The notes under the pieces are model-generated. The model was not told where the DNA came from and did not search any database. It saw only the letters and a list, made by a program, of their open reading frames with translations. A stretch of 64,000 bases of DNA from Pseudomonadota bacterium (GTDB taxonomy: Bacteria > Pseudomonadota > Alphaproteobacteria > Rhizobiales > Beijerinckiaceae), in contig JAKAJL010000002.1 of the NCBI GenBank assembly GCA_021813805.1, positions 1-64,000 on the forward strand, written 5' to 3'. A program made the position numbers and the translations under genes. The first letter of the stretch is position 1. Each line of letters starts with the position of its first letter. Below, in pieces: positions 3,064 to 30,425 of the stretch.

Positions 3064-3430
3064 CGCCAGTCGGCCGGATGGCCGCCGCCCTTTCCGGGCG
3101 GAGGAAAGTCCGGGCTCCACGGAGAAACGGCGCCGGATAACGTCCGGCGGGGGCGACCCCAGGGAAAGCGCCACAGAAAGCAAACCGCCTTTGGTTCGCC
3201 AAAGGCAAGGGTGAAAGGGTGCGGCAAGAGCGCACCGCGCCGACGGCGACGTCGGCGGCACGGCAAGCCCCGCCGGGAGCAAAACCGAATAGGGACGACA
3301 GGGAAACCACCCTTCTCCGGGGCGTCGTCCGGGTTGGTTGCACGAGGCGGCCGGTAACGGCCGCCCCAGAGGAATGGCCATCGCGCGCCGAGAGGCGCTA
3401 TACAGAACCCGGCTTACAGGCCGACTGGCG
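3064..3430 (+). ncRNA. rnpB: RNase P RNA, bacterial type A
   Basis: Catalytic RNA of RNase P, which trims the 5' leaders of tRNA precursors. The ends pair as a perfect P1 helix: CGCCAGTCGGCC at 3064-3075 against GGCCGACTGGCG at 3419-3430. Conserved core blocks are visible: GAGGAAAGTCCGGGCTCC near 3110, CCACAGAAA near 3170, AGGGTGAAA near 3208, and ACAGAACCCGGCTTACAGG just before the 3' end. The length of 367 nt is normal for alphaproteobacteria. It lies directly upstream of the dcw operon, where mraZ would usually be found. No strong terminator follows. Confidence 0.95.
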
Positions 3431-3617
3431 CTTCAATGCGGCGTAAATGGGTTCTTAACGCTAACGGTGTTTTAATCGGGCCAAATGCATTTTCTCCAAG
3501 CCCGCCGCCATGCCGCATGCTCATCGAACGCCAAAGGCCGTCAGCACGGCGCCGCCGCGCTCCCGCGCCGCGCGCCGGGCCCACGGGCGATTCGCCCGTG
3601 GCGACGCGAGGCCGCGC

Positions 3618-9835: not shown

Positions 9836-10971
9836 TCTGGCTCGCGGCGCTGTCCCATCATTTCAGCCCGCTGAACGTTTTCCGCTACATCACCTTCCGG
9901 GCCGCCGGCGCCACCGCGACCGCGCTGTTGTTCGTGTTCTTCTTCGGCCCGTCGATCATCGCCTCGCTGCGGATCAAACAGGGCAAGGGCCAGCCGATCC
10001 GGACCGACGGCCCGCAGTCCCACCTCGCCAAGAGGGGCACGCCGACCATGGGCGGGCTGATGATCATTTCCGGCGTGACGGCCTCGACCGTGCTGTGGGC
10101 CAATCCGCGCAGCGCCTACGTCTGGATCGTGCTGTTCGTGACCCTGGGCTTCGGCGCGATCGGCTTCTACGACGATTATCTCAAGGTCACCAAGCAGAGC
10201 CACAAGGGCTATTCCGGCCGCGCCCGTCTCGGCGCCGAGGCGGGGGTCGCCATGCTCGCCGCTTATTTCATGATGTGCGCCTCGGCCACCGGGCCAGTGG
10301 CCAGCCTCGGCGATTTCTTCGCCGCCCTGGCCGCGCCCTTCACGGCGGCGGCGCCGGCGACCAAGCTGGCCGCGCCGTTCATCCACGGCTGGATCGTCGA
10401 TCTCTCCTGGATCTTCCTGCCCTTCGCCGCTTTCGTCATGGTCGGCGCCGGCAATGCGGTCAATCTCACCGACGGGCTCGACGGCCTCGCCATCGTGCCG
10501 GTGATGATCGCCTCGGCGGCCTTCGGCATTATCGCCTATCTCGCCGGCAACGACATTTTCGCCCATTATCTCGGCATCAATTACGTGCCCGGCGCCGGCG
10601 AACTGACGGTAATGACCGGCGCGATGATCGGCGCCGGCCTCGGCTTCCTTTGGTTCAACGCCCCGCCGGCCCAGATCTTCATGGGCGACACCGGCTCGCT
10701 GGCCCTGGGCGGCATGCTCGGCGCCATCGCGGTGGCGATCAAGCACGAGATCGTGCTGGCCATTGTCGGAGGCCTGTTCGTGATGGAGGCGCTCTCGGTC
10801 ATCGTCCAGGTGGCGTCGTTCAAGATGACCGGCAAGCGCGTTTTCAAGATGGCGCCAATCCACCATCATTTCGAGCAATTGGGCTGGGCCGAGCCCCAGG
10901 TCGTGGTGCGGTTCTGGATCATCGCCTTCGTCCTGGCCCTGATCGGCCTCACCACGCTGAAGGTGCGCTGA
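9829..10971 (+). CDS. mraY: Phospho-MurNAc-pentapeptide transferase (lipid I synthase)
   Basis: An integral membrane enzyme that transfers phospho-MurNAc-pentapeptide from UDP to undecaprenyl phosphate, forming lipid I. It has about ten hydrophobic helices and the family signatures [19 protein letters not shown] (the aspartate pair near residue 113), [13 protein letters not shown], and [12 protein letters not shown], followed by the histidine-rich PIHHHFE loop near the C-terminus. At 380 residues it is slightly longer than the E. coli enzyme. It overlaps murF by 7 bases and murD by 1 base. Confidence 0.96.
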
Positions 10972-12392
10972 TGATCCCGATCACCTCTTTCGCCGGCCAG
11001 TCGGTCGCTCTTTTCGGCCTCGGCGGCTCCGGACTGTCCACGGCGAAAGCGCTTGCCGCCGGCGGCGCCCAGGTGAGCGCCTGGGACGATTCGTCCGCCG
11101 CGCTCGAAAAGGCTTCCGCCGAGGGGATCCGCCTCGACGATCTGCATCAGGCCGACTGGTCCTCATTCAAGGCGCTCATCCTCGCGCCGGGCGCGCCGCT
11201 CACCCATCCAGCGCCGCATTGGAGCGCGGCCAAGGCGATCGCCGCGGGCGTCCCGGTGATCGGCGACATCGAATTGTTCTGCCGCGAGCGAGCGCTTCAT
11301 GCGCCCGGCGCGCCTTTGGTCGCGATCACCGGCACCAACGGCAAGAGCACCACCACGGCGCTGATCGCCCACATTCTGCGCGAGGCCGGCGCCGACGCGC
11401 AGCTCGGCGGCAATATCGGGACGCCGATCCTCGATCTGGAGCCGCCGTCGCCCGAGCGCGTGCATGTCGTCGAATGTTCGAGCTTCCAGATCGATCTCGC
11501 GCCCTCGCTCAACCCCAGCGTCGGTATTTTGCTCAACCTGACTCCGGACCACCTCGACCGCCACGGGACGATGGAGAATTACGCGGCGATCAAGCGGCGG
11601 CTGGTCGAATCGTCCGATTTCGCCGTCGTCGGACGCGACGACGGCTGGTGCGAGGCGATCTTCCAATATCTCAAGGGCGCGGGCCATGCGGTGGTCGGCG
11701 TGTCAAACACTCGGCCCAACGCTCTGGGCAGCGTCAGCCTCGACGCGGGCCATCTGCGCCGCACCTTCGCTCTGCCAATGCTGAGGACGCTCGAGGAAAA
11801 TCTGTTCGATCTGTCGCGCGCGCCGGCCCTGCGCGGCGCCCATAACGCGCAGAACGCGGGCGCAGCTTTCGCCGCCTGCGAGCGGCTCGGCCTTCCCCAT
11901 GACGAGATCGGTCTTGGCATGCGCTCCTTCCCCGGCCTCGCCCATCGCATGGAGCAGGTGGGACACAGGGACAAGGTCCTGTTCGTCAACGACAGCAAGG
12001 CGACCAACGCCGACGCGGCGGAAAAGGCCCTGCTGAGCTTCGACGACATTTTCTGGATCCTTGGCGGCAAGGCCAAGGCCGGGGGGATCGAGCCGCTGCG
12101 GCCGTTGTTCGGCAGAATCCGCAAGGCTTATCTGATCGGCGAGGCGGCGCGGGAATTCGCCGCCACGCTCGAAGGCGCGGTCGCTTACGAAAAATGCGGG
12201 ACGCTGGACGTCGCGGTCGCCGCGGCCGCGCGCGATGCGCAGACGAGCGCGGCGGGCGAGCCGGTCGTGCTGCTGTCGCCGGCCTGCGCGTCGTTCGACC
12301 AGTTCGCCAATTTCGAGAAGCGCGGCGACGCCTTCCGAGGTTACGTGGCCGGCCTGCTGGCGGAAGACGCCGTGCAGGGGGCGTTGTTGTGA
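10971..12392 (+). CDS. murD: UDP-MurNAc-L-alanine:D-glutamate ligase
   Basis: MurD adds D-glutamate to UDP-MurNAc-L-Ala in the cytoplasm. The N-terminal Rossmann region [17 protein letters not shown], the ATP loop [14 protein letters not shown], the ECSSFQID segment, [17 protein letters not shown], and the C-terminal [17 protein letters not shown] are classic MurD features. The length is 473 residues. The reading frame is open well upstream inside mraY, but similarity begins only at the ATG at 10971, which shares the last base of the mraY stop. A 75-base gap then precedes ftsW. Confidence 0.95.
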
Positions 12393-12467
12393 ACGGGGGC
12401 GGCGAAGCGTCGAACCGATCCGAGAGGCGTCGTCGCGCAAGCGATCGCAAGAATGAGGAAACTCGCC

Positions 12468-13637
12468 ATGATTTCTCGCGCGGAACGCTCGGCGATCGCC
12501 GACTGGTGGTGGACGGTCGACCGCTGGCTGCTTCTGGGCGTCGGCGCCCTGATCGTGCTTGGCCTGGTGCTGGTGATGGGCGGCAGCCCGCCGGTGGCTG
12601 ACCGGCTTCATCTGCCGCCGTTCCATTTCGTCAATCATCAGGCCGAATTCCTCGTCCCGACGGTCGTCATCATGCTGTCGCTGTCCTTCCTGCCGCCGCG
12701 TCTGGTTCGGCGCGCGGCGCTGGGGGTCTATGTCGCGTCCATGGGGCTGATATTCGCGGCGCTGATGTTCGGCCACGAAGTGAAGGGCGCGAAGCGCTGG
12801 ATTTTCGGCATCCAGCCGTCGGAATTCCTCAAGCCCGCTTTTGTCGTTCTCGCCGCCTGGGCGATTTCCGAAGGCGCCAAACGCCGTGACCTTCCGGCCA
12901 ACTGGATCGCGATCCTGCTCTTTCCGGCGACGGTGGTCCCGCTCATTCTCCAGCCGGATTTCGGTCAGACCATGCTTCTGTCGCTGGTCTGGGGCGCGTT
13001 GTTCTTCATGGCCGGCCTGCACTGGTTCTGGCTCGGCGGACTCGGCGCCGGCGGCGCCGTTTCGGTGGTTCTGGCCTATAGATTCGTGCCTCATGTGCGC
13101 GCGCGCATCATGCATTTCCTCGACCCCGGCCAGATGGGCGGCGTCTCCGACACGTTCCAGGTCGACACGGCGCGCGACAGCTTCATCTCCGGAGGCTGGT
13201 TCGGGAAAGGGCCGGGCGAGGGCGTCTTCAAGCAGATCCTCCCCGACGCCCACACCGATTTCATCTTCGCCGTCACCGGCGAGGAGTTCGGTCTGCTGTT
13301 CTGTATGTTCATCGTCGGGATCTACGCCTTCATCGTGCTGCGCGCCCTGCTCAAGGCGTCGCGCGACGACGATCCGTTCTGTCGTTTCGCCACGGCCGGC
13401 CTCGCGCTTCTTTTCGGCATTCAGGCCTCGATCAACATGGCGGTAAACCTCCATTTGATGCCGGCCAAGGGCATGACCTTGCCGTTCATTTCCTATGGCG
13501 GTTCGTCGCTGATCTCGCTCGGGATCACCATCGGCTTTCTGCTCGCGGTCACCCGCAGGCGGCCGAAATCCGCCATCCTGTTCGACCGCGCCGAGCCTGA
13601 GTCCGCCAGCCAGCCGATGGGAGTCCCGGCGGAATGA
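12468..13637 (+). CDS. ftsW: Septal peptidoglycan glycosyltransferase FtsW (SEDS family)
   Basis: FtsW polymerises lipid II glycan strands at the division site and pairs with FtsI. It is an integral membrane protein of 389 residues with about ten hydrophobic segments. SEDS signatures visible are KGAKRWI with the following QPSEFLKPAF, LQPDFGQTML, GWFGKGPGEGVFKQILPDAHTD (split here by family loops), and LPFISYGGSSL near the C-terminus. I chose the ATG at 12468 because GAGGAA sits about 7 bases upstream; an in-frame ATG at 12453 would add five residues and lacks a good ribosome-binding site. The end overlaps murG by ATGA. Confidence 0.95.
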   Translation: MISRAERSAIADWWWTVDRWLLLGVGALIVLGLVLVMGGSPPVADRLHLPPFHFVNHQAEFLVPTVVIMLSLSFLPPRLVRRAALGVYVASMGLIFAALMFGHEVKGAKRWIFGIQPSEFLKPAFVVLAAWAISEGAKRRDLPANWIAILLFPATVVPLILQPDFGQTMLLSLVWGALFFMAGLHWFWLGGLGAGGAVSVVLAYRFVPHVRARIMHFLDPGQMGGVSDTFQVDTARDSFISGGWFGKGPGEGVFKQILPDAHTDFIFAVTGEEFGLLFCMFIVGIYAFIVLRALLKASRDDDPFCRFATAGLALLFGIQASINMAVNLHLMPAKGMTLPFISYGGSSLISLGITIGFLLAVTRRRPKSAILFDRAEPESASQPMGVPAE

Positions 13638-14743
13638 GCCGCGAGGAAACGAAGGGCGATCTCGTTTTGGTCGCCGCCGGGGGAACCGGCGGCCATCTCT
13701 TTCCCGCCCAGGCGCTCGCGCAAGCAATTCGTGCGCGAGGGATTCGCGTCCAGCTTGCCACAGACGAGCGCGCCCTGCGCTATGGCGGTGATTTTCCCGC
13801 CGAGGAAATTCACGAAATCGCCTCGGCGACGCCGACGTCGCGCGGGCTCGGCGCCAAAATCTCGGCGGCGCTGGTCCTTGGCAAAGGCGTCGTCGAGGCC
13901 TATCGGCTCCTCGGCGCGATAAAACCCCGCGTGGTTGTGTCCTTCGGCGGCTATCCCACCGTGCCGCCGGCTCTGGCCGCTTCCCTGCGCGCGGTTCCGC
14001 TGATCCTGCACGAGCAGAACGCGGTGATGGGCCGCGCCAACCGCTTTCTGGCGAGACGCGCGGATCGAATCGCCTGCGGCTTTCCAACCCTCGAAGGCCT
14101 GCCGGAATCTCTATGCGACCGCGTCGTCCAGGTCGGCAATCCTGTCCGCCCGGCGGTGCTGGAGGCGGCCCGCCTGTCCTATCCCGGCTTCGACGACGGG
14201 CGCCTGCGCCTCCTGGTCACCGGCGGCTCGCAGGGCGCGCGGATCATGTCCGACGTGGTGCCGGCGGCGATAGAACGTCTCGCGCTGGAGCAACGGGCGC
14301 GGCTGGTCATCGTGCAGCAGGCGCGCGGCGAGGATCTCGCGCGGGTCCGCGAGGTTTATCTGCGTCTAGGCGTGAATTTCGAGGCCGCGGCCTTTTTCCC
14401 CGATCTGCCCCTGCGCATGGCAAAGGCGCATCTGGTGCTGGCGCGCTCCGGCGCCTCGACGGTTTCGGAACTGGCGGTTGTCGGCCGCCCGTCGATTCTC
14501 GTGCCTTTCCCTCATGCGCTGGACGCCGATCAGGCGGCCAACGCGAGGCATCTGGAAAAGGCCGGCGCGGCCGAAGTGATGCGCCAGACGGGCTTCACCC
14601 CGGAATGGCTGGCGGAGAGGCTTGCCCGCGCGCTCGACGAGCCAAGGGACTTGACGCGGCGCGCCCAAGCGGCCAAGAGCGCCGGCGTTCCCGACGCCGC
14701 CGAACGTCTGGCCGATCTGGCCCTCAAGACCGCCGGGCTTTAG
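13634..14743 (+). CDS. murG: UDP-GlcNAc:undecaprenyl-PP-MurNAc-pentapeptide GlcNAc transferase (lipid II synthase)
   Basis: MurG adds GlcNAc to lipid I on the inner face of the membrane, giving lipid II. The glycine loop AAGGTGGHLFPAQALA, the SFGGYPTVPP loop, HEQNAVMGRANRFLA, and the C-terminal sugar-nucleotide region (VTGGSQGARIM; ARSGASTVSELAVVGRPSI; DADQAANARHLEKAGAA) are all present. The length of 369 residues is normal. It starts with ATGA overlapping the ftsW stop. A 30-base spacer with TGGAG precedes murC. Confidence 0.96.
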   Translation: MSREETKGDLVLVAAGGTGGHLFPAQALAQAIRARGIRVQLATDERALRYGGDFPAEEIHEIASATPTSRGLGAKISAALVLGKGVVEAYRLLGAIKPRVVVSFGGYPTVPPALAASLRAVPLILHEQNAVMGRANRFLARRADRIACGFPTLEGLPESLCDRVVQVGNPVRPAVLEAARLSYPGFDDGRLRLLVTGGSQGARIMSDVVPAAIERLALEQRARLVIVQQARGEDLARVREVYLRLGVNFEAAAFFPDLPLRMAKAHLVLARSGASTVSELAVVGRPSILVPFPHALDADQAANARHLEKAGAAEVMRQTGFTPEWLAERLARALDEPRDLTRRAQAAKSAGVPDAAERLADLALKTAGL

Positions 14744-14773
14744 AACCCGCGTGGCATTCCTGGAGTTTCGCCA

Positions 14774-16183
14774 ATGAAATTGCCGAGCAAACTTGGGCCC
14801 ATCCATTTCGTCGGAATCGGCGGCATCGGCATGTCGGGCATCGCCGAAGTCCTGCTCAATCTCGGTTATGACGTCCAGGGCTCTGACGCCTCCGACAACG
14901 CCAATGTGAAGCGCCTGCGGGAAAAGGGCGCGCGGGTCTTCGTCGGCCACAACGCCCGCAACCTCGGCGAGGCGGCGGTCGTCGTGGTCTCGACCGCGAT
15001 CAAGCGCGACAACCCGGAACTGGCGGCTGCGCGCGAAAAACGCCTGCCGGTGGTGCGGCGCGCCGAAATGCTGGCCGAGTTGATGCGGCTCAAGCAATGC
15101 GTCGCCATAGCAGGAACCCATGGCAAGACCACCACGACCTCGCTGGTTTCGACCCTGCTCGACGCCGGCGGGCTCGACCCGACCGTGATCAACGGCGGCA
15201 TCATCAACGCCTATGGCACAAACGGCCGGCTTGGCGGCGGCGACTGGATGGTGGTCGAAGCGGATGAGAGCGACGGCACGTTCCTGAAACTGCCCGCCGA
15301 TGTCGCGGTGGTCACCAATATCGACGCCGAGCACCTCGACCATTTCAAGACTTATGACGCGGTCAAGGAAGCCTTCCGCGCCTTCGTCGAGAATCTGCCT
15401 TTTTACGGTTTCGCGGTGATGTGCCTCGACCATCCGGCCGTGCAGGAGCTGGTCGGCAAGATTGAGGACCGTCATGTCATCACCTATGGCGAAAACCCGC
15501 AGGCCGACGCGCTGCTCTCCAATATCGACCTGACCGGCGGCGTGTCGCGCTTCACCGTCACGCTTCGCGACCGCCAGCAGGGCCGCGAGACCGTCCTGTC
15601 GGACCTGACCCTGCCCATGCCAGGCCATCACAACGCGCTGAACGCCACCGCCGCGATCGTCGTCGCCCACAGGCTCGGCGTGAGCGTCGAGAATATCCGG
15701 AAGGGCCTGGCCTCGTTCGGCGGGGTCAAGCGGCGTTTCACCCGCGCCGGCGAATGGAACGGCGTGGCGATCTTCGACGATTACGGCCACCATCCGGTAG
15801 AAATCGCGGCGGTGCTGCGCGCCGCCCGCGCCTCGACCCCGAACAAGGTGATCGCCGTGGCCCAGCCGCATCGCTACACCCGCCTCCAGTCGCTGTTCGA
15901 CCAGTTCGCGACCTGTTTCAACGACGCCGACGTGGTGATCGTGGCCGATGTCTATCCCGCGGGCGAGGCGCCGATCGAAGGCGTCGACAAGGACGCTCTG
16001 GTCGCGGCGATCAAGGCCCACGGCCATCGCCAGGCGATCGCCTTGCCAAGCCCCGACGATCTGCCGGACATGATCCGCAAAATCGCCGCGCCGGGGGATT
16101 ATGTCGTGATGCTCGGCGCCGGCAACATCACCCAATGGGCCTATGCCTTGCCCGGCCAGCTCGCCGCGGGGGACGCCGCATGA
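14774..16183 (+). CDS. murC: UDP-N-acetylmuramate:L-alanine ligase
   Basis: MurC attaches the first amino acid, L-alanine, to UDP-MurNAc. Visible motifs are [20 protein letters not shown] at the N-terminus, the ATP loop [37 protein letters not shown], and the C-terminal [11 protein letters not shown] typical of MurC. It is full length at 469 residues. TGGAG lies upstream of the ATG. Its stop overlaps the start of the embedded glutamine amidotransferase gene (ATGA), so the two are likely translationally coupled. Confidence 0.96.
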
Positions 16184-29328: not shown

Positions 29329-29763
29329 ATGTTCGACGACATATACAACCGCAAGATCCTTGAGCTCGCCGGCAATATTCCGCGGCTCGGCCGGCTGGCG
29401 GCGCCGCAGGCCTCGGCAGAGGCCCATTCGCGACTGTGCGGCTCCTCGATCGTCGTCGATCTATCGCTGCGGGACGGCCTGGTGTCCGATTACGCCCAGG
29501 AGGTGAAGGCCTGCGCGCTCGGCCAGGCGGCGTCCTCTGTCATGGGGCGCAACATCATCGGCGCGAAGCCGGAAGAACTGCGGAGTTTACGCGAAACCAT
29601 GCGCAGGATGCTCAAGGAAAACGGCCCGCCGCCTCAGGGCCGCTTCGCCGACGCCGGCGTGCTGGAGCCCGCCCGCGACTACAAGGCGCGCCACGCTTCG
29701 ATCCTGCTGGTGTTCGACGCGGTCGCCGAGGCTCTGGACAAGGTCAAGCAAAATGACGCCTGA
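29329..29763 (+). CDS. IscU/NifU-like iron-sulfur scaffold protein
   Basis: A 144-residue member of the NifU N-terminal family (COG0822). The N-terminus MFDDIYNRKILELAGNIPR, LCGSSIVVDLSL with the first Cys, and VKACALGQAASSVM with the second are visible. A canonical IscU has a third Cys near the C-terminus; here the corresponding region (RDYKARHASILLVF) has His instead. This is the variant form common in Hyphomicrobiales, so the role in cluster assembly or transfer is not certain. The downstream hsp20 promoter region begins almost at its stop. Confidence 0.85.
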   Translation: MFDDIYNRKILELAGNIPRLGRLAAPQASAEAHSRLCGSSIVVDLSLRDGLVSDYAQEVKACALGQAASSVMGRNIIGAKPEELRSLRETMRRMLKENGPPPQGRFADAGVLEPARDYKARHASILLVFDAVAEALDKVKQNDA

Positions 29764-29771
29764 TCGCGTCA

Positions 29772-29820
29772 ATGATCCTGATCAATGCATTTTCTGACCA
29801 ATATCGTATTTTATTGCTTA
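29772..29820 (+). promoter_or_regulatory. FNR/FixK-type promoter upstream of hsp20
   Basis: ATGATCCTGATCAA (29772-29785) matches the FNR/FixK consensus TTGAT-N4-ATCAA at nine of ten positions. A -10-like TATTTT lies at 29807-29812, so transcription would start near 29820. That puts the centre of the box at about -41.5, the class II activator position. Both elements are read from sequence; the start site is inferred. Confidence 0.5.
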
Positions 29821-29824
29821 TCGA

Positions 29825-29924
29825 GGGGTCCGACCCCGCGGAGTGCGAAGGGCAGGATCTTCTCGTCGAGACGTCCCGCAGAAAGCGAAGCCCAAGTGGC
29901 CGAGCGGAGGACGTCGAGGAGGAT
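29825..29924 (+). promoter_or_regulatory. Structured 5' leader of hsp20, candidate RNA thermometer
   Basis: The leader can fold into GGGGT-CCG-ACCCC (29825-29837), then a long stem in which ATCTTCT (29857-29863) pairs with GGAGGAT (29918-29924) and ACGTCC (29871-29876) pairs with GGACGT (29909-29914). Two small hairpins fit inside: CGC-AGAAA-GCG and GCC-CAAGT-GGC. The outer stem hides the Shine-Dalgarno sequence and has G-U wobbles, as expected for a heat-melting element. Confidence 0.45.
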
Positions 29925-29927
29925 GTC

Positions 29928-30425
29928 ATGAAAACGCTGCTTCCGGATCTCTGGACGCCCGAATTTCTGACAGATCCCTTCCGCGCCTTCGAAAGGGATA
30001 TGTTTGGGCGCGAATTTCAGAAAATGTTCCAGACGCCCGCCATGAAGGAAGCCATGGCGCCGGTGCCGGCGATGAACATCGCCGAAACCGAGACCGCCAT
30101 CGAAGCGACCCTCGAAATTCCGGGTGTCGAGGAAAAGGACATCAAGGTTCGCGTCGAGGGCGACCGTCTGATCGTCTCCGGCGAGAAAAACTGGGAGAGC
30201 AAACGCGAGGAGAAAGATTGGCACGTGACGGAACGTCGTTTCGGCTCGTTCTATCGGACGGTGGCGCTGCCGTTCGAACCTGCGGCGGATGCGATTACCG
30301 CCCATTATGACAAGGGCGTTCTCCATCTGAAAGTTCAGAAACCCGCCGCCAAGGTGACGACCGCCAAGACCATTCCCGTAATGTCTGGCGCGCCGAAGGC
30401 CGAAGAACCGCCGAAAGTCCAGTAA
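29928..30425 (+). CDS. Small heat-shock protein (Hsp20/alpha-crystallin family)
   Basis: A 165-residue ATP-independent chaperone that holds unfolding proteins. The alpha-crystallin domain spans about residues 43-140 (MNIAETETAIEATLEIPGV, VRVEGDRLIVSGEK, FGSFYRTVALPFE, YDKGVLHLKV). The C-terminal tail has KTIPVM, a variant of the I-x-I anchoring motif. The ATG at 29928 is preferred because GGAGGA sits four bases upstream; an upstream ATG at 29772 falls inside the putative operator. The leader carries a possible FixK-like box and a hairpin over the ribosome-binding site. Confidence 0.92.
   Translation: MKTLLPDLWTPEFLTDPFRAFERDMFGREFQKMFQTPAMKEAMAPVPAMNIAETETAIEATLEIPGVEEKDIKVRVEGDRLIVSGEKNWESKREEKDWHVTERRFGSFYRTVALPFEPAADAITAHYDKGVLHLKVQKPAAKVTTAKTIPVMSGAPKAEEPPKVQ

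Follow-up and report, generated by a model that had tools for sequence, protein, structure and literature searches.

The gene for a small heat-shock protein (hsp20) in the window, i.e. the whole 64,000-nucleotide stretch of DNA analyzed here, is preceded by a conserved FNR-type box with class II spacing and by a leader for which two successive hairpins are predicted. With moderate confidence we propose that hsp20 is activated at low oxygen by an FNR-type regulator acting in class II position, and that the two-hairpin leader shields the 5' end of its mRNA. The features of the locus are:

29772..29785, + strand: FNR/FixK-type box ATGATCCTGATCAA, centre at 29778.5, matching the consensus at 9/10 positions and kept in 10/10 orthologs.
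29807..29812, + strand: -10-like hexamer TATTTT, with TAnnnT at equal distance from the box in 9/10 orthologs.
29820..29927, + strand: predicted 5' leader of 108 nt, its start site placed by class II spacing.
29822..29865, + strand: predicted hairpin 1, 29822-29828 CGAGGGG with 29859-29865 CTTCTCG; two-hairpin fold in 10/10 orthologs, these basal pairs in clade A.
29870..29915, + strand: hairpin 2, 29870-29876 GACGTCC with 29909-29915 GGACGTC; 92.5% of cells paired, 0/500 shuffles as high.
29917..29922, + strand: Shine-Dalgarno sequence (SD) AGGAGG, invariant in 10/10 orthologs.
29928..30425, + strand: hsp20 coding sequence, 165 aa, start codon ATG at 29928, Pfam HSP20 at 2.1e-20.

Orthologs were searched in 11 Rhodoblastus genomes, counting the window genome (G000), and found in ten of them at 76-100% identity; the exception was G009 (91% complete), where this search found no hsp20 ortholog. 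The ten sequences, L001 (the window) to L010, form two clades, and the DNA upstream of the box in L007-L010 is unlike that in L001-L006, which implies that the promoter travels with hsp20. On the 3' side of the gene, the segment 30458-30487 reads CGGCCCCC-TCAAAT-GGGGGCCG followed by GAGCTTTT, by eye a terminator-like hairpin, and was left unflagged by a terminator scan that requires five T.

The box agrees with nine of the ten specified positions of TTGATNNNNATCAA, as the initial annotation had stated, and is one mismatch away from the FNR/FixK palindrome TTGAT-N4-ATCAA. None of the ten orthologs lacks it: each carries, at the homologous place, the form AATGA-N6-TCAATGC with at most one mismatch to TTGAYNNNNRTCAA. 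The mismatch common to all ten is an A at position 1, so that the upstream half reads ATGA and not TTGA, which counts against the assignment. In the 10-way alignment, 12 of 18 columns are invariant across the box (29771-29788), compared with 2 of 19 spacer columns and 0 of 7 in the DNA immediately preceding the box. The hexamer TATTTT, previously proposed as a class II -10 element, is borne out by its counterparts, which lie at the matching class II distance from the box in 10/10 orthologs within one base; the exception to exact spacing is L006, with TATATG one base further away. A scan for sigma-70 promoters in the 330 nt upstream of the ten orthologs returned no promoter-like site on the + strand, which fits a promoter whose -35 element is replaced by an activator. 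An RpoH-type promoter (pattern CTTG-N15-20-CYTAT) was considered and rejected, with no match in any of the ten 330-nt upstream regions.

Boxes of this type are frequent in the window genome. Sites with at most one mismatch number 97 in 3.67 Mb (about one per 38 kb) versus 7 for the reversed pattern, and perfect TTGAYNNNNRTCAA sites 28 versus 2. Given the 97 versus 7 sites and the presence of the box in all ten orthologs, the hsp20 box exceeds chance expectation. All 28 perfect sites were inspected for a downstream frame; several fall inside open frames and may be there by chance, and others precede genes for ccoN, ccoG, NosZ, a NarK-family protein and Cpn60 (groEL), with one at the start of a regulator gene, L102. 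Ten proteins were subjected to a domain scan, nine encoded behind boxes and one by the window gene upstream of hsp20. The ccoN and ccoG proteins scored above their NCBIfam cut-offs; the NosZ and NarK-family pieces, both cut by the end of their stretch, scored below (340 against 625 and 200 against 312). Above Pfam cut-offs were Cpn60, CBS-BON, CusF, ferrochelatase and DapD-like matches. The hsp20 box thus looks like part of an apparently working FNR-type regulon, as judged from sequence. At L096 and L097 (G000:C47, about 2.2-4.2 kb), perfect boxes stand before the Cpn60 (groEL) gene and before a frame of 140 aa close to it, and oxygen control may, on this pattern, extend to chaperones besides hsp20.

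As to the regulator, the genome yielded nine HTH_Crp_2 matches, eight above the cut-off, two of which (L102 and L103) were compared with NCBIfam. The L102 protein matched FnrL best (176.1 bits, below the cut-off of 300) and FixK at 136.2 bits; its N-terminal region contains CADCEIKGLSIC, which we take to be the FNR cysteine motif, and a box is positioned at its predicted start. L103 (G000:C13, about 95.3-96.6 kb) encodes a Crp/Fnr-type regulator nearest to FtrB with a GGDEF domain, and has two perfect boxes in front. Since FnrL is the best-scoring match of L102, which also carries the cysteine motif, an FnrL-type regulator is the likelier predicted activator at the hsp20 box, rather than FixK.

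Box conservation, promoter geometry and the genome's set of boxes together give good support to the prediction that hsp20 transcription is controlled by low oxygen via a class II site of the FNR/FixK family. From the earlier claim of oxygen control, the conserved FNR-family site is retained, while the label 'FixK' is better read as FNR-type.

Other hsp20 genes were scanned for boxes with at most one mismatch, beginning, wherever the locus reached that far, some 350 nt before the expected start. Among low-identity hsp20 paralogs of the genus, 0 of the 13 examined carried a box (14 in the list, with L079 left out). In the outgroup, perfect boxes precede the start of the match by 124 nt (L054) and 114 nt (L012), and lie further off in L015 (two, at 457 and 371) and L018 (one, at 353). 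L011, L013, L014, L016, L017, L019, L020, L021, L023, L027 and L028 were without a box, L019 and L028 overlapping each other; L022, L024 and L026 gave no match from which to start. An extended box, AATGAYNNNNRTCAATGC, was tried as a mark of the regulon and discarded: 19 of 119 family genomes contain it, at 22 sites in all against about 15 expected by chance (a hand estimate assuming equal base frequencies); four of these sites lie at hsp20, and the window genome has one site. As the reversed pattern had no site in any of the genomes listed, some of the other 18 sites may be real FNR sites.

The predicted leader measures 97-111 nt across the ten orthologs, and the two-hairpin fold is predicted in each of them when the leader is folded up to the SD. 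The z-scores of these folds range from -0.4 to -7.1, at or below -2.25 in eight sequences and not low in L001 (-0.97) and L006 (-0.4); the ordinary stability of the window leader itself counts against our proposal. A 121-nt stretch of the window is no more stable than its dinucleotide shuffles (z -0.39), and an architecture of two stems beginning by base 5 and ending at most 4 nt from the SD arises in 39-68 of 200 shuffles per sequence. Hairpin 2, which contains the inner stem noted previously (ACGTCC 29871-29876 with GGACGT 29909-29914), carries the comparative evidence. Its 92.5% is taken over 80 cells, including six double-change cells (CG->GC in four sequences and CG->UA in two), and 0/500 shuffles match it in cells paired, in double-change cells or in covariation score; shuffles are as high in 167/500 cases for pairs with a double change and in 475/500 for pair types. 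As the four and the two each follow a clade, these changes represent few events. The pairing of hairpin 2, and with it the inner stem, is supported by this alignment.

Hairpin 1 is more variable. Its clade A register is 82.9% paired, with six of the seven pairs formed in 6/6 clade A sequences and the seventh in 5/6; clade B uses a different register, and over the whole alignment shuffles are equal in cells paired in 248/500 cases, which counts against this stem. The first paired base of hairpin 1 falls among bases 1-5 of the predicted transcript in all ten orthologs, which lends weak support, because 133-178 of 200 shuffles also pair within their first five bases. Just past the predicted start site, CGAGGGG (29822-29828) is invariant in 5 of its 7 columns among the ten orthologs; the remainder of hairpin 1 is invariant in 3 of 36.

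A covariance model of the leader scored the ten hsp20 leaders at 82-103 bits. As it was built from these same leaders, their own scores are expected and the result is the gap below them: among the candidates scored in the genus search (150 of 10,162-14,861 first-look candidates per genome) the next match reached 28.6 bits, and none of 43 other loci exceeded 17.9 bits. On these comparative grounds we regard the predicted leader structure as real; in the open-licence literature, no report of this hsp20 leader was found.

A different role for the leader had been put forward in the initial annotation: two-layer control, with an FNR/FixK box governing transcription and a thermometer governing translation, in which an outer stem of ATCTTCT (29857-29863) and GGAGGAT (29918-29924) would cover the SD and melt on heating. 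Such a fold is possible and dominates the predicted ensemble of the window sequence, where, with 15 nt of coding sequence included, 0.83 of the structures sampled at 30 °C have the pyrimidine strand paired to the SD, and this fraction is 0.90 at 15 °C and declines to 0.66 at 50 °C; L003 likewise prefers strand-SD pairing (0.81 at 30 °C). The window ensemble thereby favours an SD-blocking fold, which also counts against our own proposal. With 60 nt of coding sequence, however, the trend in the window sequence is reversed (0.67 at 15 °C, 0.96 at 50 °C), and across the orthologs the predicted effects of temperature are slight or differ in sign. Relatives do not preserve the exact outer stem (68.6% of 70 cells paired, with 113/500 shuffles as high), and in most of them the ATCTTCT strand pairs with the 5' end of the leader, although not in the predicted ensemble of the window sequence.

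The Rfam models for ROSE (RF00435) and fourU gave no match above the gathering score in the window and none up to E 10 in 29700-30000, in keeping with the earlier remark that the fold is not an obvious ROSE element. The sole Rfam match above its cut-off in the window was a bacterial class A RNase P RNA at 3066-3432 (305.2 bits). Because the stem is not conserved, its strand pairs 5' in most relatives, and neither ROSE nor fourU matches, the sequence comparison lends no support to an ATCTTCT/GGAGGAT hairpin acting in heat control, and we consider the two-layer reading very improbable. Of the two features whose loss in related genomes the initial annotation had named as refuting it, the box is retained and the pairing is not. 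The folding itself yields no thermal claim for or against, because four ROSE-type leaders show no predicted opening either.

Those leaders belong to other genes. Within the genus, three of 11 genomes gave, among the 150 of 218-317 candidates per genome that were scored, at least four ROSE (RF00435) matches at E <= 0.001. Matches above the 45-bit cut-off came from G009 and, once, from G010; those in G000 (42.4 bits) and the second in G010 (36.6 bits) were below. They precede Hsp20-like frames beginning with MRNIDFDPF or MRQFDLSPL, i.e. other hsp20 genes, which we take to be IbpA-like. In the window genome, the 42.4-bit ROSE-like element (L090, G000:C86:2150-2244) stands before another Hsp20-like frame.

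A CsrA/RsmA site in the form GACA-GGAGGA-TGTC was also considered, after a weak RsmY match (8.4 bits, E 9.9) and in view of the CsrA consensus. It was rejected: CsrA was found in 0/11 genus genomes by a search whose control gave hits in E. coli, B. subtilis and one more of 14 known genomes, and L001 and L002 lack the GACA arm.

The predicted openness of the ribosome site varies with how much sequence is folded. At 30 °C and with 15 nt of coding sequence, hairpin 1 exceeds 0.9 in seven of the ten orthologs, and the ensemble of L008 divides 0.53/0.47. When 60 nt are included, strand-SD pairing is favoured in L001 (0.96), L003 (0.92) and L005 (0.59) and not in L008, and 3.6-5.1 of the six SD bases are paired in 10/10 orthologs, which speaks against a freely open site. 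These ensembles bear on two further readings. According to one, the 5' CGAGrGG and the true SD compete across hairpin 2 for a single pyrimidine strand (TCTTCTCG, CCCTCG, CCTTCG or CCTCCG), and open and closed states of the leader would be chosen by temperature, ribosomes, a sRNA or a ligand. The invariance of 5/7 CGAGGGG columns against 3/36 in the rest of hairpin 1 favours this three-strand arrangement, as do the populating of both states in L001, L003 and L008 (15 nt) or L003 and L005 (60 nt), and the RNAalifold result for the set, which picks hairpin 2 together with another register of the pyrimidine strand with the SD (38/38 cells paired). The SD being invariant, however, the closed state is beyond a covariation test (500/500 shuffles are equal), and the open state is the one exceeding 0.9 in 7/10 sequences at 15 nt. 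We therefore hold the competition of strands to be unlikely, and equally doubtful what it would amount to, a genus-specific RNA switch in Rhodoblastus hsp20 mRNA by which a second signal would gate translation of a chaperone induced by low oxygen.

The other reading has the ribosome site closed by the coding sequence, GGAGGATGTCATGAA pairing with codons 13-18 (..TTCATGACCGATCCCTTCC). One and the same hairpin topology is predicted for -11..+57 in 10/10 orthologs, and folding of the whole leader with 60 nt of coding sequence places SD pairing mainly downstream in 7/10, around codons 16-19. Against it, z-scores relative to synonymous shuffles are between -1.65 and +1.0 (mean about -0.8), the testable codons 13-19 are invariant in 3/4 cases versus 32/86 from codon 20 on, with other runs lower, and in L001 and L002 the stem lacks one of its pairs, that involving the U of the start codon. 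A closure of this kind appears improbable.

Under the explanation we prefer, FNR-type activation with a protective leader, falling oxygen would cause the FnrL-like regulator, its cysteine motif serving a Fe-S cluster, to bind the box at about -41.5 and to activate RNA polymerase as a class II activator. Transcription would start near 29820, and the leader of about 108 nt would fold into its two hairpins, hairpin 1 at the 5' end and hairpin 2 closing immediately ahead of the SD. Most probably this leader would shield the 5' end of the mRNA from decay and keep other RNA off the ribosome site, so that the chaperone would be abundant in low oxygen.

Stabilization by a 5'-terminal stem-loop is exemplified by the ompA mRNA. 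The window leader resembles such stabilizers in its predicted stem at base 1-5, followed by the SD, and differs in that its start site is a predicted one and that a 5' placement is common in shuffles. A published review describes the stabilization of a bacterial mRNA by a 5' hairpin (PMC3997798), in line with our proposal. Like ROSE (RF00435), the window leader is structured, precedes an hsp20 gene and extends to the SD; it differs in lacking a match to the model and in the partner of the SD, and the ROSE-type leaders of the genus precede other hsp20 genes.

Regarding transcription, the section on rlv_1399 in a study of Rhizobium leguminosarum describes about 50-fold microaerobic induction of this small Hsp gene, lost in the fnrN double mutant (PMC11784457). 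Like the window gene, rlv_1399 lies behind an FNR-family box. Counted from the start codon, its two anaeroboxes lie at -87.5 and -143.5, whereas window hsp20 has one, at -149.5, with ATGA as its left half; control of rlv_1399 is experimental and that of window hsp20 predicted, and, as far as the rlv_1399 section goes, a structured leader is described for window hsp20 alone (PMC11784457). For Bradyrhizobium diazoefficiens, a table in a paper on FixK2 assigns hspC2 (blr4637) a FixK-type box TTGAGCAAAATCAA at -86; the groEL gene beside it in that table also has a box, as in the window genome, but hspC2 belongs to the FixK2 network, whereas the best regulator candidate for window hsp20 is FnrL-type (PMC9104804). 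The Hsp20 protein blr7961 is listed in a table of a Bradyrhizobium microoxia study (PMC6515984), and a tabulation of predicted FNR/FixK/DNR regulons includes an Hsp20 (PMC2908626). A search of the open-licence literature found nothing that joins an RNA thermometer, Hsp20 and FNR, and for heat-shock proteins in Rhodoblastus only a paper whose title places it in snail toxicology.

FNR-type control of small Hsps is thus already published, and window hsp20 adds another case, by which the predicted control, described for rhizobia, would be extended to free-living purple bacteria. Within one genome, the findings suggest a division of labour in which ROSE-type leaders would serve the response to heat and the FNR box that to oxygen, with the conserved leader of hsp20 as a compact RNA element.
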